From a virus: a DNA stretch of 25,617 bases. The notes below the pieces were generated by a model that made no database searches, was not told where the DNA came from, and saw only the letters and a program-made list of their open reading frames with translations. The translations under genes and the position numbers were made by a program. Positions 2,808 to 23,489 of this stretch are shown here, in pieces (positions within the stretch are counted from its first letter, which is position 1; every line of letters starts with the position of its first letter). Location: positions 1-25,617 of the IMG/VR virus record IMGVR_UViG_3300028895_000633; one strand, given 5' to 3'.

Positions 2808-3007
2808 CCCACGACTGGAACCGGACGGCCCACCTGCTGGCCATGCTCCACAACTGCAATTGCGCGAAGAAAAGCGACTGCGTAACCCCGAGCCAGATGA
2901 ACCCGACGGCCGAACGACCGCAGCCCGACGACTACCACCCGCCCTGCAAGGCCCACTGGGACGTCTTGCGCCGCGTGATGGTCGGAGATAGCCCAGGAAC
3001 GGATTGA
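2259..3007 (+). CDS. Tail assembly chaperone, -1 frameshift product (gpGT-like)
   Basis: The -1 frame relative to the short chaperone encodes an unmistakably protein-like segment from about 2714 to the TGA at 3005-3007: WRIVAECAGIIGVDP, then FRDLVTATNARVAHDW, then RTAHLLAMLHNCNC. This resembles the C-terminal T domain of lambda-type GT proteins, where 'G-I-x-P-x-x-x-T-x-x-E-L' is followed by a helix ending in W/N and a hydrophobic 'A-x-L-x-A-x-x-x-N' stretch. The segment has no ATG or GTG of its own near its start, so production by a -1 ribosomal shift from the upstream frame is the simplest reading. The fusion would be about 249 residues. It would help recruit the tape measure protein during tail assembly. 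Confidence 0.65.
2709..2717 (+). other. Candidate -1 frameshift site for the tail chaperone
   Basis: The zero frame reads ACC-CCT-GGC here, and the coding signal in the -1 frame starts at TGG 2714. A tRNA-Pro in the P site on CCT could re-pair with CCC one base back, giving ...STP-WRIVAECAG. This is not a classical X-XXY-YYZ heptamer, so the exact site is uncertain. It is chosen because the zero frame looks real up to this point and the -1 frame looks real after it. Confidence 0.35.
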
Positions 3008-3143
3008 CGATTGATGATTGCCGATTGTCGATTGACGAAGGAAGAACGCGAAACGCCGCCCTTCCCACTTCAACAATCATCAATCATCAATCGGCCATCA
3101 TCAATCAACCCTTCACCCTTCACCCTTCACCCTTCAAACTTCC
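3004..3143. repeat. Composite heptamer element: inverted TTGNNGA/TCNNCAA arrays plus (CCCTTCA)4
   Basis: Five TTGNNGA heptamers (3004-3038) are followed by a 31-base spacer. Then come five heptamers of the inverse type TCNNCAA (3070-3104; one reads TCGGCCA), four CCCTTCA heptamers (3109-3136) and AACTTCC (3137-3143). The next gene starts at ATG 3147. The TGA that ends the chaperone fusion (3005-3007) lies inside the first heptamer. A 55-base stretch (2998-3052) recurs without a mismatch at 23348-23402. The two arms could fold into a long imperfect hairpin. Confidence 0.9.
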
Positions 3144-7851: not shown

Positions 7852-8243
7852 CTCGCTGCCGATACGAACTGCTGCGGACGATCGACGAGCCCAACGCCCC
7901 GCGGCTGTACGCCTTGAGGTGTCCCGACTGCGGCCACACCCGCCTCGGCACCTACCCGCCGGAGAAGGTCTCGCGCCGCTGCCCGGTCAGAAGTTCGAAG
8001 GATGAAGAGGGGGAAAAACGGACGCTGGCCGATTGCGTTGCCGAACTGGTCGCCGACGGGAAGGCGACCCGCTCCAACGGCGAAATCGTCCGGCTGCTGC
8101 AAATCTGCGAACAATGCCCCCGCGACCTGTTCAGCGTCGCCGCCGGCGCCTGCACCGAAACCGGAACCCCCTGCCACTGGCACCAACACCACGCCGCAAG
8201 ACTCTGCCGGGGCACATGCCCCGGGTGGAAGAGTGAAGGGTGA
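7848..8243 (+). CDS. Cysteine-rich zinc-ribbon-like phage protein
   Basis: A 131-residue protein translationally coupled to the gene before it (ATGA overlap at 7848-7851). CPDC at residues 25-28 with C45 could form a zinc site. A second cysteine cluster (CEQC at 87-90, C102, C109, C120, C124), together with histidines in CHWHQHH, suggests another metal site. The stop TGA (8241-8243) falls inside a TGAAGGG heptamer array, so the last residues KSEG come from the repeat; the gene may originally have ended differently. The function is unknown. It closes the tail-gene cluster. Confidence 0.55.
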   Translation: MTRCRYELLRTIDEPNAPRLYALRCPDCGHTRLGTYPPEKVSRRCPVRSSKDEEGEKRTLADCVAELVADGKATRSNGEIVRLLQICEQCPRDLFSVAAGACTETGTPCHWHQHHAARLCRGTCPGWKSEG

Positions 8244-8268
8244 AGGGTGAAGGGTGAAGGGTGAAGGG
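8234..8268. repeat. Heptamer array (TGAAGGG)5
   Basis: Five perfect 7-base units in a row. Read on the other strand this is CCCTTCA, the same unit that precedes several start codons elsewhere. The array overlaps the 3' end of the upstream gene and supplies its stop codon. Confidence 0.95.
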
Positions 8269-13051: not shown

Positions 13052-13120
13052 AACCCGACATTTGCCCCCGAAACCCTACCCCGAGGCCCGCAAAAATGGC
13101 CGATTTCGCCCGATGTTTCA

Positions 13121-13148
13121 CCCTTCACCCTTCACCCTTCAAACTTCC
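13121..13148. repeat. (CCCTTCA)3-AACTTCC start-proximal array
   Basis: Three CCCTTCA heptamers and AACTTCC lead directly into ATG 13149 with no spacing. The first codons of the gene again contain CCCTTCACCCTTCC, so the array may extend into the coding sequence. The 70 bases before it (13052-13120) hold no gene. Confidence 0.9.
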
Positions 13149-14048
13149 ATGACCGCCCTTCACCCTTCCACCGTCCGCCTGATCTACTCCCCGCCGGCCG
13201 AAGGCGAGATCCGCCGCGGGCCGGCCGTCGGGATGGCCGGGTTGGTCCACTACCTCGAGAAGTTCGGCCTGCCCGAATGGCTCTCGATCGCGGCCTCCGC
13301 TTGCGATACCGCGATCCCTTGGTATTGGAACGCCGGCCAGGCCCGAGCCGCCGCCCGCGACGCGACCGCCGGCCGGCCGTTCATCATCGGCCCCAACATG
13401 CTCTGGGTGAACCGCGTCCGTCCCAACGCCACCCGCCACGAGCGGACGATCGCCCGGGCCCCGACCTGCCGGCTCATCTTCTGCCATACGCCCGAGTATG
13501 CCGACTGCATCCGCCGGGGCCTGGGCCAACACAACGCCGCGGAGATCTGCCCGGTCCCCTATCCCGTCTGGCCCGAGCCGCCCGACCTGGGAACCCTGCC
13601 GTTCTTCCCCTTGCTGATCTACTACAAATCGGGCCCCTACGACGACCTGGTCACCGCCCTGCGCGACCGCTGGCCCCGGGCCGTGGTGCTGCGATACGGG
13701 ACCCACAGCCGCAACACGCTCTTGACCCTGGCCCGTCAGAGCCGCGCCGCGGTCTACCTCTCCGCCGACGACCACGGCCCCCTGGCCCTGGCTGAGATCC
13801 TGCTGTCCGGCTGCCCCGTCATCGGCCACCGCTCGACCGCCCCCTGGATCGAGCCCGACCAAACCGGCCTGTACATCGACGACCTGGCCGACGCGGCGGC
13901 CGTCGTTTCCGCCGTGGAGGACCTCCACGAGTGGGACCTCAATCCGATCCGCGATCGAGCCCGCGAGTTGTTCGACCCGCGGCTGATTGTGGAGACCGTA
14001 CTCGCCGCCCTTGATCGCGCGCGACGCCACGAGCCAGGAAGAGATTGA
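13149..14048 (+). CDS. GT-B-fold glycosyltransferase
   Basis: A 299-residue protein. The N-terminal domain opens with VRLIYSPPAEGEIRRGPA and has a PFIIGPNMLWVNR strand-loop. The C-terminal domain carries the GT-B donor pattern: AVYLSADDHGPLALAEILLSGCPVIGH, with a 'GLY' (TGLYIDDLADAAAVV) a little later, as in GT4-like enzymes. It is slightly shorter than typical GT4 enzymes. The start at ATG 13149 immediately follows a CCCTTCA array and has no Shine-Dalgarno site. The stop TGA (14046-14048) lies in a TTGACGA heptamer. It is the last of five sugar-modifying genes of the island; the substrate is unknown. Confidence 0.75.
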   Translation: MTALHPSTVRLIYSPPAEGEIRRGPAVGMAGLVHYLEKFGLPEWLSIAASACDTAIPWYWNAGQARAAARDATAGRPFIIGPNMLWVNRVRPNATRHERTIARAPTCRLIFCHTPEYADCIRRGLGQHNAAEICPVPYPVWPEPPDLGTLPFFPLLIYYKSGPYDDLVTALRDRWPRAVVLRYGTHSRNTLLTLARQSRAAVYLSADDHGPLALAEILLSGCPVIGHRSTAPWIEPDQTGLYIDDLADAAAVVSAVEDLHEWDLNPIRDRARELFDPRLIVETVLAALDRARRHEPGRD

Positions 14049-17912: not shown

Positions 17913-18143
17913 ATGAACTACGACGGGACGATTCACGCCGATCGAGTCTACACCGACCAGCAGATCCTACAAATCCTGAACATCAGTGAGGATCAACTCA
18001 ATGGCTACTACAAGGGCCCCCGGGGGCTCCGCTACTTCCAGAAGACCCGCCAGCAGAAACGCCTGATCTCCGGGGCCGAATTCCACCGTTTCATTGAAAG
18101 GAACCAAGACGAATGGCCAAGCGAAGACGGCGACGACGAGTAA
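17913..18143 (+). CDS. Possible excisionase / small DNA-binding protein
   Basis: A 76-residue protein whose 3' end overlaps the integrase gene by 31 bases. The segment YTDQQILQILNISEDQLNGYY looks like a winged-helix/MerR-type N-terminal helix pair, followed by a basic RYFQKTRQQKRLISGAEFHRFIE. Small DNA-binding proteins directly upstream of and overlapping an integrase gene are often excisionases or recombination directionality factors, which turn the integrase towards excision. I see no diagnostic motif, so Xis is an inference from position, size and fold. It has a weak ribosome-binding site (ACAGGT). Confidence 0.5.
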   Translation: MNYDGTIHADRVYTDQQILQILNISEDQLNGYYKGPRGLRYFQKTRQQKRLISGAEFHRFIERNQDEWPSEDGDDE

Positions 18144-19390
18144 GACGCCGCAAGGGCGTCACTCTCCACCCCGGGGTGAGTCTGCTTCGGCCGACCCGAA
18201 GCCGGCCCTACTACGTCCTACGGTACACGGACGAGGCCGGCGACTCCCACCAGCAATCGACCGGCTGTACGACCGAAGGGCCGGCCCGCGACGCGGCAAT
18301 CGAGCTTTCCCGAAAACTCGGCCTGCTGGGCGAGGATTCGGTCGACGTGACCTGGACCCGATTTTGCGATCGCTACGAAACCGAGCGGCTCGCTTCGAAG
18401 TCACCCGGCTACCGCAACGCCTGGGGCACGGTCCGGGCCCACTACGCCGACCTGATGAAGCCCCAATTCCTGGACGAGGTGAATTCCTCGTCAATTTCCC
18501 GCTTCACGGCGAAGCTCCGCAAGAAGCTCGAGCGGAAGACCGAAATCGTCAGCGACGCGACGATCGCCTCCTATCTCAAGACCCTACGGGTCGCGTTGAA
18601 CTGGGCCCATCGAATCGGCCTGCTATCCCAACGGGTCGCAATCGAAATCGACGGGGGCGACGGCGACGACATGCGGAGCCGCCCGATCACCCTGGAGGAA
18701 TTCGAGCGGATCCTGATGGCCGTCCCGAAGGTACGCACGAGGGACGCCGCCCAGTGGGAGCATTTTCTTCGGGGGCTCTGGGAGTCCGGTTTTCGATTGG
18801 GAGAACTCTGGGAGCTATCCTGGGACGACTCGACGAACGTAAGCTTGTACCTTGGCGGCCGGTACCCGATGGTCCGGTTCGCCAAGCGCGGCCAAAAGCG
18901 ACGGAAGCAGCAATACCAGCCGATCACGCCCGAATTCTGGGCCCTGATCGACGCCACGCCTTACCCGTTTCGCCACGGCCGCGTCTTTCCGCTGCTGGCC
19001 AGCCGCAACAAGAAGGACCGAGGCCGGGCCCGCCAGGTCTCCAAGACCTGGGCCGGCGAGGTGGTAGCGAAGATCGGCGTCAAGGCCGGCGTGATCACCG
19101 CCCTGGAGTCCAGGACCAAGATCGATCCGGAAACGGGCGAAAAGTCCGACGTTCGCAAGAAGGCCACTTCCCACGACATCGGGAAACGTGCCCTGACGAT
19201 GCGTTTGGCCGATCGATTATCCGAAATCGACCTGGCCAAATGGCAACGCCACAAGGACCCGCGGACAACACGACGAAACTACCATCACCGCGAGGCCGAC
19301 GACCTGGCGGCCCAAATCTGGGCGCAAGGTGACGGTTTAGGTGACGGCGGGCCCTCCGACAACGAATCCGAGGAAAATCCGTCAACGTAA
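18113..19390 (+). CDS. int: Phage tyrosine-family integrase
   Basis: A 425-residue site-specific recombinase. Residues 1-15 are very basic (arm-site binding is plausible), about 75-175 form the core-binding SAM-like domain and the rest is catalytic. I see R228 (SGFRLGELWELSW), K258 or K263 (FAKRGQKRRK), H354 (SHDIGKRA), H380 (KWQRHKDPRTT) and nucleophile Y390 (RRNYHH), with H380-Y390 spacing as in the family. The second box reads H-D-I-G-K-R rather than H-x-x-R, so the second arginine is displaced to R359. ATG 18113 has a GAAAGGAA site 10 bases upstream. Its last codons contain two arm-type repeats, and the attachment site follows within 30 bases. Confidence 0.93.
   Translation: MAKRRRRRRVRRRKGVTLHPGVSLLRPTRSRPYYVLRYTDEAGDSHQQSTGCTTEGPARDAAIELSRKLGLLGEDSVDVTWTRFCDRYETERLASKSPGYRNAWGTVRAHYADLMKPQFLDEVNSSSISRFTAKLRKKLERKTEIVSDATIASYLKTLRVALNWAHRIGLLSQRVAIEIDGGDGDDMRSRPITLEEFERILMAVPKVRTRDAAQWEHFLRGLWESGFRLGELWELSWDDSTNVSLYLGGRYPMVRFAKRGQKRRKQQYQPITPEFWALIDATPYPFRHGRVFPLLASRNKKDRGRARQVSKTWAGEVVAKIGVKAGVITALESRTKIDPETGEKSDVRKKATSHDIGKRALTMRLADRLSEIDLAKWQRHKDPRTTRRNYHHREADDLAAQIWAQGDGLGDGGPSDNESEENPST
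19327..19347 (+). other. Integrase arm-type sites, left pair
   Basis: AGGTGACGG occurs twice 12 bases apart (19327-19335 and 19339-19347). An almost identical pair lies on the other side of the tRNA-like core. The pair encodes the GDGLGDGG near the integrase C-terminus, so the site and the gene end overlap. Confidence 0.7.
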
Positions 19391-19416
19391 GTCGAGTTGT
19401 CAAAGAACGTTACAAG

Positions 19417-19463
19417 TCGGGGCGACTGGATTCGAACCAGCGACCTTTTGACCCCCAGTCAAA
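19417..19463 (-). other. Candidate attP core: 3' part of a tRNA-Pro(GGG)
   Basis: On the - strand this is the 3' part of a tRNA. It has an anticodon arm with stem TTTGA/TCAAA and loop CTGGGGG (anticodon GGG, + strand 19454-19456), variable loop AGGTC, T arm GCTGG-TTCGAAT-CCAGT, 3' acceptor strand CGCCCCG and discriminator A. The 5' part is missing: the sequence beyond cannot form the D arm or pair with the acceptor strand. A 3' tRNA part beside an integrase gene is the usual form of a phage attachment core that restores the host tRNA after integration. CCA is not encoded. Confidence 0.85.
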
Positions 19464-19562
19464 TCTGGATGCCCAACTGGGCCCGAACTCGCCAGGAAAC
19501 TCGGCGGGGACGGGCCCTCTCTCTTCTCGCTAAGTGCCTTCGGCGGCTGTTAGTTCCGGCCC

Positions 19563-19583
19563 AGGTGACGGCTAAGGTGACGG
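19563..19583 (+). other. Integrase arm-type sites, right pair
   Basis: AGGTGACGG occurs at 19563-19571 and 19575-19583, with the same 12-base period as the left pair. The two 21-base blocks differ only in the spacer. Confidence 0.7.
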
Positions 19584-19745
19584 CGGCCGATCCGGGCCGA
19601 TTTGGGAATTCTGGAATTCTTCAGATTTTCTTAGATCGCCAGTTTCGCCGACTCGCCGGAAGGTCGCCGAAATGTCGCCGGGGAACTCAAGGGGGCTTTT
19701 GACGCGCCCCGCTCTCAAGTCGTGGGATCATCACGAGTTGCAACG

Positions 19746-19754
19746 CCGTCACCT
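19746..19754 (-). other. Inverted single arm-type site
   Basis: CCGTCACCT is the reverse complement of AGGTGACGG. With the two following bases it matches TAAGGTGACGG of the right pair over 11 bases. Confidence 0.55.
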
Positions 19755-19834
19755 TATTTCGACATCGCCCCGACGGTCTCCCGTAGACTCCAGCACAGTC
19801 GACCACTGAACGCCACTACGCGAGACGATCAAAC

Positions 19835-20065
19835 ATGGCCAGCACAACGATTTCCCCACTGACCGACCGGCAAGCGGAAGTCCTGGAGATCATCCGGGAA
19901 TCGCTCACCGACCGCGGCTATCCGCCGACGATCCGCGAAATCTCCCGCCGGCTTGGGGTGCACATTAGCGCGACCGTCGGCCATCTCGAAGCCCTGGCCA
20001 AGAAGGGCTACATCGAACGCGATGAGGGCGTGACCCGTGGAATTCGCATCCTCCGCTACACCTGA
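19835..20065 (+). CDS. LexA-type DNA-binding domain protein without protease
   Basis: A 76-residue protein that covers only the N-terminal winged-helix domain of LexA: LTDRQAEVLEIIRESLTDRG, YPPTIREISRRLGVHISATV and HLEALAKKGYIERDEGVTRG follow the LexA pattern closely (LTxRQ, GYPPTxREI, HLxALxxKGYI). The autocleavage/dimer domain with its Ser-Lys pair is absent, since full LexA has about 200 residues. It may repress or modulate SOS-type promoters of phage or host, without being cleavable. The ribosome-binding site is weak. It is the first gene right of the attachment site. A palindromic promoter at 17319 is a possible target. Confidence 0.85.
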   Translation: MASTTISPLTDRQAEVLEIIRESLTDRGYPPTIREISRRLGVHISATVGHLEALAKKGYIERDEGVTRGIRILRYT

Positions 20066-20391: not shown

Positions 20392-21363
20392 TTGACTGAC
20401 CTCGACCCACTCCGCCCGCTCTTGGCCTCCCGCTCGATCGGCCCGGCCGTGAAGCTCGCCTTCCTGGACCTTTGGGACCTGGCCGGGGGCCGGCCGGGCC
20501 ATGTCGTGACCACGGCCGCCGCCTGGGCGTCCCGGCTGGGACGGGACGCCCGAACGGCCCGCGACTGGCTCGACGCGCTGGCCGCCGCCGACCTGGTCGA
20601 CGTCGTGGACCGCTCCCGCCGCGGCGTCTACCAGGTCTACGTCTACCAGCCAGCCCCCGGCCAACGCGAGGAACGGCCGGACCCCCAGCAACGGTTGCCG
20701 CTGGCCGTGGAAGAGGACCAACCGGCCCAACGAACTTTCCCCCCGGAGGAGCCGGCCGAAACGACGAAAACCCCCGCGGGGGTTTCTGCGCAAAAACCCC
20801 CGCGGGGGTTTTCGCAAAAACGCGCCAATCCCGAGGAAAACGCAACAAACCCCCCGGGGGTTTTCGTAACTCACCCCCCGGCCAAACGACGAAAACCCCC
20901 GCGATCCCCCATGGACATAGAAAAGGATAATCTTCGATTATCCCATACCCATGGAACCATAGACACCATGGACCATGGGCGCCACGTTCCGGTCCCCTTC
21001 AGCGCAACCGACTGCGCCCGCATCGTCGAAGCCGCCGGAACCAAGGCCGAGCAACTCCGCGGTCAAAAGGAGGCCCTGGTCGACTACCAGGCCCGGGCCG
21101 TGGCCGATTCGGAAACCGACCCGTCCATCTACCGCCGGATCGCCGAGGCCGTCTACGACCACGACGCCGCGCTCGAGGACGTCGAACACTGTGCCGAGTC
21201 CGTCCGGTCCGCCCGCGAGGCCGGCCGGATCCGCGCCTCACCCGGCCGGCTCTATCTCGGCATGATCCGCAAACGTCTCCCCGGGCCGACCCTGGCCCGC
21301 CTCGACCTGACCCCACGCACGAAAAGGACCGCCAACGATGGCCATCAAGCCGTTGAATCTTGA
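20392..21363 (+). CDS. Putative replication initiator with internal origin
   Basis: A 323-residue protein. TTG 20392 is taken as start because AAGGAAG lies 7 bases upstream and no ATG fits. Residues about 10-80 form a winged-helix domain (GPAVKLAFLDLWDLAGGRPGHVVTTAAAWASRLGRDARTARDWLDALAAADLVDVV), as in phage and plasmid initiators and lambda-O-like proteins. Residues about 100-175 are low-complexity and are encoded by a cluster of CCCCC/GGGGG palindromes. Residues 200-320 are helical (AEQLRGQKEALVDYQARA, SIYRRIAEAVYDHDAALEDVEHC) and may recruit a helicase or its loader. DNA-binding head, origin repeats in the middle and partner-binding tail is the lambda O plan. The function is inferred, not proven by a family match. 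Confidence 0.6.
   Translation: MTDLDPLRPLLASRSIGPAVKLAFLDLWDLAGGRPGHVVTTAAAWASRLGRDARTARDWLDALAAADLVDVVDRSRRGVYQVYVYQPAPGQREERPDPQQRLPLAVEEDQPAQRTFPPEEPAETTKTPAGVSAQKPPRGFSQKRANPEENATNPPGVFVTHPPAKRRKPPRSPMDIEKDNLRLSHTHGTIDTMDHGRHVPVPFSATDCARIVEAAGTKAEQLRGQKEALVDYQARAVADSETDPSIYRRIAEAVYDHDAALEDVEHCAESVRSAREAGRIRASPGRLYLGMIRKRLPGPTLARLDLTPRTKRTANDGHQAVES
20761..20903. repeat. Palindromic iteron cluster, candidate replication origin
   Basis: AAACCCCCGCGGGGGTTT (20768-20785) and AAAACCCCCGCGGGGGTTTT (20793-20812) are perfect palindromes 25 bases apart. A shorter variant (C6/G5) lies at 20847-20864 and a half site at 20891-20903. ACGACGAAAACCCCCGCG recurs exactly at 20761-20778 and 20886-20903. 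Repeated sites inside an initiator gene, followed by an AT-richer stretch, are the classical form of a lambdoid origin. Confidence 0.7.
20914..20978. other. AT-richer hairpin next to the iterons, candidate unwinding region
   Basis: Right after the iterons the sequence becomes locally AT-rich, unlike its surroundings. It holds GGATAAT-CTTCG-ATTATCC (20925-20943), a perfect 7-bp hairpin. CCCATGG...CCATGGG (about 20948-20978) forms a second inverted repeat made of CCATGG units. It remains in frame within the initiator gene. Confidence 0.5.
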
Positions 21364-23172: not shown

Positions 23173-23364
23173 ATGCTGATTATCGACCGACGACCTGGCC
23201 AGTCCGTGACGATCGGGAACGCCGTTGTCACTGTGCTGAAACCCCGTAAATCCGGAAAGGTCGCCCTGGCGATCGACGCCCCGCGCTGCGTGCCGATCGT
23301 CCGCGACGACGCCAACCGCAAGGAGCCGAGAGAAGCCGTGAGCCAGAAACGGATTGACGATTGA
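23173..23364 (+). CDS. csrA: CsrA-family RNA-binding regulator
   Basis: A 63-residue CsrA/RsmA homologue, which as a dimer binds GGA motifs in mRNA leaders and changes translation or stability. MLIIDRRPGQSVTIGNAVVT corresponds to the N-terminal strands, with R6 and R7 as in CsrA. The sequence GKVALAIDAPRCVPIVRDD matches 'VRIGVNAPKEVSVHREE', with R44 at the RNA-contacting position. A GAAAGGAAACC site precedes ATG 23173. The last residues (QKRIDD) and the stop come from the heptamer element that follows, so the natural C-terminus was probably altered. It could tune phage or host messages, including the many phage leaders with AAAGGAAA. Confidence 0.88.
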   Translation: MLIIDRRPGQSVTIGNAVVTVLKPRKSGKVALAIDAPRCVPIVRDDANRKEPREAVSQKRIDD

Positions 23365-23446
23365 TGATTGCCGATTGTCGATTGACGAAGGAAGAACGCG
23401 AAGCTCCAACTTCAACAATCAACAATCATCAATCGGAAATCATCAA
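23354..23446. repeat. TTGNNGA / TCNNCAA heptamer element, fourth copy
   Basis: Five TTGNNGA heptamers (23354-23388) are followed by a 23-base spacer and five inverse heptamers (23412-23446). The first 55 bases of the element and its edge (23348-23402) are identical to 2998-3052. The csrA stop TGA (23362-23364) is inside the second heptamer. Confidence 0.92.
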
Positions 23447-23489
23447 TCACGCTTTCTCCCCACCACTTCAAGAAAGGAAACCCCGACCC

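Follow-up and report, generated by a model that had tools for sequence, protein, structure and literature searches.

The DNA analysed, referred to here as the window (25,617 bp in full), is a virus record (IMGVR_UViG_3300028895_000633). Its plus strand encodes a 425-residue tyrosine integrase of lambda-type three-domain layout at 18113–19390 (PHROG integrase, E = 5.9e-19; PF13102). The start of this gene (int) is overlapped by an ORF of 76 residues (17913–18143, plus strand) with an HTH_17-like match (E = 0.028, below the curated cut-off), which is a candidate excisionase (Xis/RDF). On the far side of the attachment region described below, a candidate repressor with a LexA-type DNA-binding domain is encoded at 19835–20065 on the plus strand (PF01726, E = 1.1e-23; PHROG transcriptional repressor).

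An exact scan of the 25.6-kb window located five copies of AGGTGACGG and none beyond these: at 19327, 19339, 19563 and 19575 on the plus strand and at 19746–19754 on the minus strand. In 40 dinucleotide shuffles, clusters of a 9-mer reached at most three copies per 430 bp and never five. The first two copies form the presumed P-arm pair of arm-type sites (19327–19347, plus strand, 12-bp period), which lies in the 3' end of int and codes for QGDGLGDGG; the next two form the presumed P'-arm pair (19563–19583, plus strand, 12-bp period). Both pairs sit within 32-nt direct repeats of 84% identity, 236 bp apart from start to start. The fifth copy belongs to an extra inverted arm-like site (TAAGGTGACGGCG, 19744–19756, minus strand) that matches the second P' unit perfectly over 13 nt. 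This inverted site was considered as a family feature and rejected: it is not conserved and has a weak counterpart in only one relative (L053). Between the P' pair and the inverted site, five TCGCC(G) units are packed within about 46 bp (19636–19684, plus strand), the densest such cluster in the window; that they serve as excisionase or host-factor sites is speculative. Promoter and terminator scans around the attachment region gave nothing exceeding chance.

The two arms enclose a 47-bp core at 19417–19463, which on the minus strand reads as the 3' part of a tRNA-Pro(GGG) (TTTGACTGGGGGTCAAAAGGTCGCTGGTTCGAATCCAGTCGCCCCGA), starting at the first anticodon-stem base and ending with the discriminator base. 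It recurs, letter for letter, within complete tRNA-Pro(GGG) genes of Planctomycetota. Since ARAGORN detected no complete tRNA in the window, the core represents the 3' part only, without the 5' half of the host tRNA. The int gene runs towards the 3' end of the tRNA and stops at 19390, 26 bp short of the core. An earlier sequence-only reading of this DNA had described the same pair in the end of int, the pair to its right, the single inverted unit and the tRNA-Pro(GGG) 3' part after int; all of these were confirmed, and its spacing of 12 bases is correct as the start-to-start distance of the units.

Because core identity begins at the anticodon stem, the anticodon loop is the natural region for the crossover and the stem supplies the inverted repeat. 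The presumed crossover region is accordingly placed at 19447–19463 (TTTGA/TCAAA, the anticodon stem), with the anticodon loop CCCCCAG (19452–19458) as the presumed 7-bp overlap. Blocks shared in the relatives described below likewise extend from the tRNA 3' end through to the anticodon arm, and an anticodon-centred subsite is known for many tDNA islands (PMC4383910).

The integrase and its planctomycete relatives

The integrase was modelled with AlphaFold2 at a mean pLDDT of 85. The predicted fold comprises N-terminal strands (residues 35–49) and a helix (55–68), followed by a helical core-binding domain and a catalytic domain, and the N-terminal domain is presumed to bind the arm-type sites. 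The best PDB match is lambda Int (1z1b, E = 2.3e-9), likewise a three-domain heterobivalent integrase (PDB entries 1z1b and 5j0n; PMC4880445). In alignments of 16 and of 30 relatives, the catalytic residues R228 (box I), K262 and H380 (box III) and the nucleophilic Y390 do not vary. Box II (window 19172–19189) reads H354-D-I-G-K-R359 (HDIGKR), where nearly all relatives have HDLRR; this is a one-codon insertion unseen among the compared relatives (HDLRR or HDFRR), and two records carry it identically. K358 and R359, either of which may take the place of the usual arginine, align opposite the two arginines of the family, and HxxR is not literally matched. The window integrase is also the sole one of 30 aligned members to lack a PF00589 match. 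On account of the insertion and the missing match, its activity is not certain.

No match to the integrase was obtained by tblastn against named phage records or by peptide patterns in GTDB contigs. Of 392 Planctomycetota genomes sampled, 21 have relatives at about 30–39% identity, as do 36 virus records besides the window. At most of the genome loci int is immediately followed by a complete tRNA (Cys, Arg, Thr, Leu, Lys, His or Met), which in nearly all cases runs the opposite way; this is the arrangement expected at the attL of an integrated element. A distal copy of the tRNA 3' part, 42–56 bp in length, was located 9–45 kb away in 11 of the 13 elements examined; it was exact in ten of them, with a length of 42–53 bp, and 93% identical in the eleventh (L050). 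Small HTH-type ORFs ending at the start of int also recur in many relatives (L043, L064, L065, L112, L115, L124 and others).

For each mapped prophage the arm on the int side was set beside the arm beyond the distal core. At a strict threshold, the window and nine of the 11 mapped prophages each have an element-specific pair of repeats that occurs once to the left and once to the right of the core, with a spacing of exactly 12 bp. A tenth prophage (L060) shows this quartet at a relaxed threshold and L042 fails. Bilateral pairs spaced at 8–11 or 13–19 bp were found in no element, and random placement produced a 12-bp quartet in six of 4000 trials. The repeated motif differs between elements (AGGTAACT, GGTCTACA, AGCTAACA, CTAACACT, GGTACCA in two elements, AGTGGACA, GGTGAC and CACTGACA, with AGGTGACG in the window), following a pattern of about GGTNAC, and each element combines its own motif with its own target tRNA. 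An intact quartet on one contig is seen in six virus records (L114, L116, L124, L125, L128 and L129), which were picked for showing it and thus serve as illustration rather than as a test. The distance from P to P' is 216–261 bp in the reconstructed prophages and 185–251 bp in the virus records; for the window it is 236 bp.

Position, bilateral symmetry, element specificity and the precedent of L5, Giles and Pixie (PMC3203893) lead us to infer that the repeats are the arm sites of the integrase. In those mycobacteriophages a lambda-type tyrosine integrase is likewise combined with a core overlapping a tRNA and with direct pairs of arm-type sites flanking it, and Pixie also shares with the window one additional inverted site (PMC3203893). 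Related mycobacteriophage integrases can differ in their arm motifs (PMC3203893), as they do in the planctomycete family. The mycobacteriophages differ in belonging to another host phylum, and close sequence similarity between them and the window was not seen. The planctomycete elements constitute a lambda-type heterobivalent integrase system and a new subfamily of it.

Presumed arm sites within the integrase coding sequence

Of 17 cases, 16 have the left repeat pair within the int reading frame. The exception is L050, whose int contains an in-frame stop; the pair comes after this stop, still in frame. An overlap between arm sites and the integrase C-terminus, considered unusual in the earlier reading, is therefore normal for this family. 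Most cases share one codon phase (GGT|GAC, GGT|AAC, GCT|AAC, GGT|ACC, GGG|AAC), giving protein tails such as GDGLGDGG, GNSSGNS, ANTLANT, KGLQKGLQ and VDSSVDSS, and the tail of the window integrase is predicted to be disordered (pLDDT below 50 for residues 410–418). With the left pair in frame and mostly in one phase, the disordered tail would translate the presumed docking site of int itself.

The encoded repeat resembles a tetrapeptide repeat (GDGL GDGG), and together with the predicted disorder this would also suit a low-complexity tail whose repeated codons have no role in recombination. The same element-specific motif, however, recurs on the P' side outside the int coding sequence, 9–45 kb away in the prophages, and so the chance that these are codon repeats and nothing else is close to nil. 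Arm sites are the preferred reading. We consider it probable that in a widespread family of planctomycete integrases the stretch of gene coding for the disordered C-terminal tail also contains the enzyme's own P-arm sites, set exactly four codons apart and mostly sharing a codon phase, with an arm motif and a target tRNA specific to each element. The tail would then be a translation of the DNA read by the N-terminal domain, and arm specificity would have to co-evolve with the coding of the tail. No description of such a rule for planctomycete int tails was found in the open-access literature searched, although one may exist elsewhere.

Unlike the window phage, lambda is not known to use a tRNA gene as its attachment site or to arrange its arm sites as a symmetric 12-bp-spaced quartet inside int. 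Cluster K mycobacteriophages differ in having attP 5' of int, so that no arm sites fall in the 3' end of the gene (PMC3203893). In myxophage Mx8, as cited in PMC4383910, attP lies in intP, and attachment DNA also overlaps the integrase coding sequence. According to that citation, the Mx8 core is inside the gene and integration alters the C-terminus of the integrase; in the window the int stop precedes the core, and integration would leave int intact.

Integration state and host target

A sister record (IMGVR_UViG_3300017992_000721, 32,440 bp) is 100% identical to the window over all 25,617 bp and adds 1.3 kb on the left and 5.5 kb on the right; it contains neither host DNA nor a second copy of the core. 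Two further records (3300017990_000433 and 3300018065_000447) overlap the left end of the sister record at 99.92% identity and extend it leftwards by up to about 10.4 kb, adding genes for the large terminase, the portal and the head protease and major head protein. Together the records give a map of about 42.9 kb of the phage, of which about 31 kb precede the core and 11.6 kb follow it. The order is terminase, portal, capsid, tails, int, attP, repressor, replication, and across the whole length of the map neither host DNA nor a second core copy was present. The P and P' arms both adjoin the one core, with phage genes on both sides: int on one, the LexA-type repressor candidate and a replication initiation protein on the other.

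An integrase gene beside tRNA sequence is typical of attL, and the locus might on that basis be taken for one end of an ordinary prophage, its attL lying at 19.4 kb and bacterial DNA following on the right. The absent 5' half of the tRNA refutes this, as integrated relatives carry complete tRNAs at this position. The phage-type genes to the right, the continuation of the sister record without host DNA and the P' arm adjoining the core also speak against an ordinary prophage, and we regard it as exceedingly unlikely. Metagenomic contigs can be chimeric, and two prophage ends could have been fused in assembly. Two records from different assemblies are, however, identical across the junction, and the 236-bp P–P' distance is within the range of the mapped relatives; the likelihood of a chimera is accordingly negligible.

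A host target for the core was sought by scanning GTDB contigs with a relaxed version of the tRNA 3' half. The scan returned 32 stretches, nearly all from Planctomycetota (Pirellulales, Phycisphaerales and Thermoguttaceae), most of which are complete tRNA-Pro(GGG) genes. The exact 47-bp core was contained in several of these from Planctomycetota MAGs (e.g. L010, L015, L022, L023, L033 and L037). Other occupants of the same tRNA were considered as relatives of the window phage and rejected, namely a pair of loci about 10.3 kb apart in JAUIHS010000001.1 (L022/L024) and a pair in one Pirellulales MAG (JAFGRD01; L009/L034). In both pairs the 3' part of tRNA-Pro(GGG) is duplicated without the arm repeats of the family; as among them no family integrase was found in G004 and no 12-bp repeat pairs were present, the elements or remnants at these sites are unrelated users of tRNA-Pro(GGG). 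A tRNA-dependent type of lysogeny (PMC10865867) was also rejected, because the 47-bp core would rebuild the tRNA and the window has no phage tRNA gene.

Three independent lines of evidence thus support an intact attP in unintegrated phage DNA at 19327–19754: the sister and left-hand records are free of host DNA and of a second core; relatives have a complete tRNA beside int where the window has the 3' part only; and the core has matches in complete host tRNA-Pro(GGG) genes. The sequence-only reading had held that arms on both sides of one core imply an excised, circular or episomal genome, and had named as counter-evidence a bacterial chromosome immediately to the right of 19.5 kb or the lack of a host tRNA matching the core. 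Phage DNA continues beyond that point in the sister record, and the search it had proposed for a complete tRNA-Pro(GGG) gene with a matching 3' end yielded exact matches. The unintegrated state is thereby upheld; the implication as worded is too strict, because a tandem double prophage (attL–phage–attP–phage–attR) gives the same junction in its middle while the DNA is integrated. In lambda double lysogens the junction between tandem prophages has the same sequence as attP. Circular closure was also not found for the window phage: its records showed no terminal repeat, and no circle was formed by adding the records that overlap the far ends. Tandem dimers are uncommon, however, and several relatives likewise show an intact attP in virus records. 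Moreover, the virus records hold no host-flanked attL or attR of the window phage, the only contigs matched being of the same population; no lysogen of it was found, and the integrated state was seen in relatives only. We therefore judge a tandem double prophage improbable.

Very probably, the window comprises all or a large part of the genome of a temperate tailed phage of a planctomycete, in its unintegrated state, and 19327–19754 is its complete attP (P arm, core, P' arm and extra inverted site) for a lambda-type integrase acting at tRNA-Pro(GGG). In the proposed mechanism the N-terminal domain of the integrase would hold the P and P' arm pairs, and strand exchange would take place over the 7 bp that encode the anticodon loop in the host tRNA-Pro(GGG) gene. 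The phage-borne 3' part would then rebuild the tRNA beside int, leaving the P' arm at the opposite prophage end, and the HTH protein whose gene precedes int is presumed to steer excision. Arm binding, the crossover position, the control of direction and a circular or packaged state rather than a tandem junction are thus the presumed elements of this scheme.

The attP itself is of a textbook type, a temperate-phage site with a lambda-type integrase and a tRNA target, and the added value lies in the planctomycete family rule. Genomic islands of the Islander type likewise restore the tRNA with a 3' tDNA fragment, and crossover in the anticodon loop is a common subsite there; Islander maps integrated islands (PMC4383910), whereas the window shows an unintegrated attP directly, together with the arm architecture. 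By the family rule, the repeat in the int tail and the adjacent tRNA sequence would give the arm motif, the core and the target tRNA from sequence alone. The matching P' pair would mark the other end of the element, allowing prophages and islands to be delimited quickly in a phylum with few known phages, and the rule could link viral contigs to planctomycete hosts. The family may also be a source of ready int–attP cassettes with several tRNA targets for laboratory planctomycetes, and, with its many natural pairs, it allows tests of whether integrase arm-binding domains and arm sites have evolved together.

Other features of the phage genome

Several near-palindromic repeats like CGAAAACCCCCGCGGGGGTTTTCG lie at 20752–20903, in a gene that weakly matches phage replication initiation proteins (PHROG 270); they are possibly origin iterons inside the initiator gene, as in lambda O. 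Beside the major tail protein gene, two tandemly duplicated genes (749–1420 and 1445–2092) of about 220 residues share 79% DNA identity, and the first of them (749–1420) had no PHROG match. Short simple repeats (ATTGACGATTGA.. and CACCCTTCACCC..) are dispersed between genes at 3000–3090, 8223–8250, 13117–13160, 23340–23470 and 25171; they are partly common to several places in the phage genome and partly translated in ORFs. A CsrA-like regulator is encoded by the phage at 23173–23364 (PF02599, E = 2.2e-10), and one of the overlapping left-hand records of the same phage (L148) carries a PAPS reductase-like auxiliary gene beside the terminase genes (positions 691–1593 of that record).
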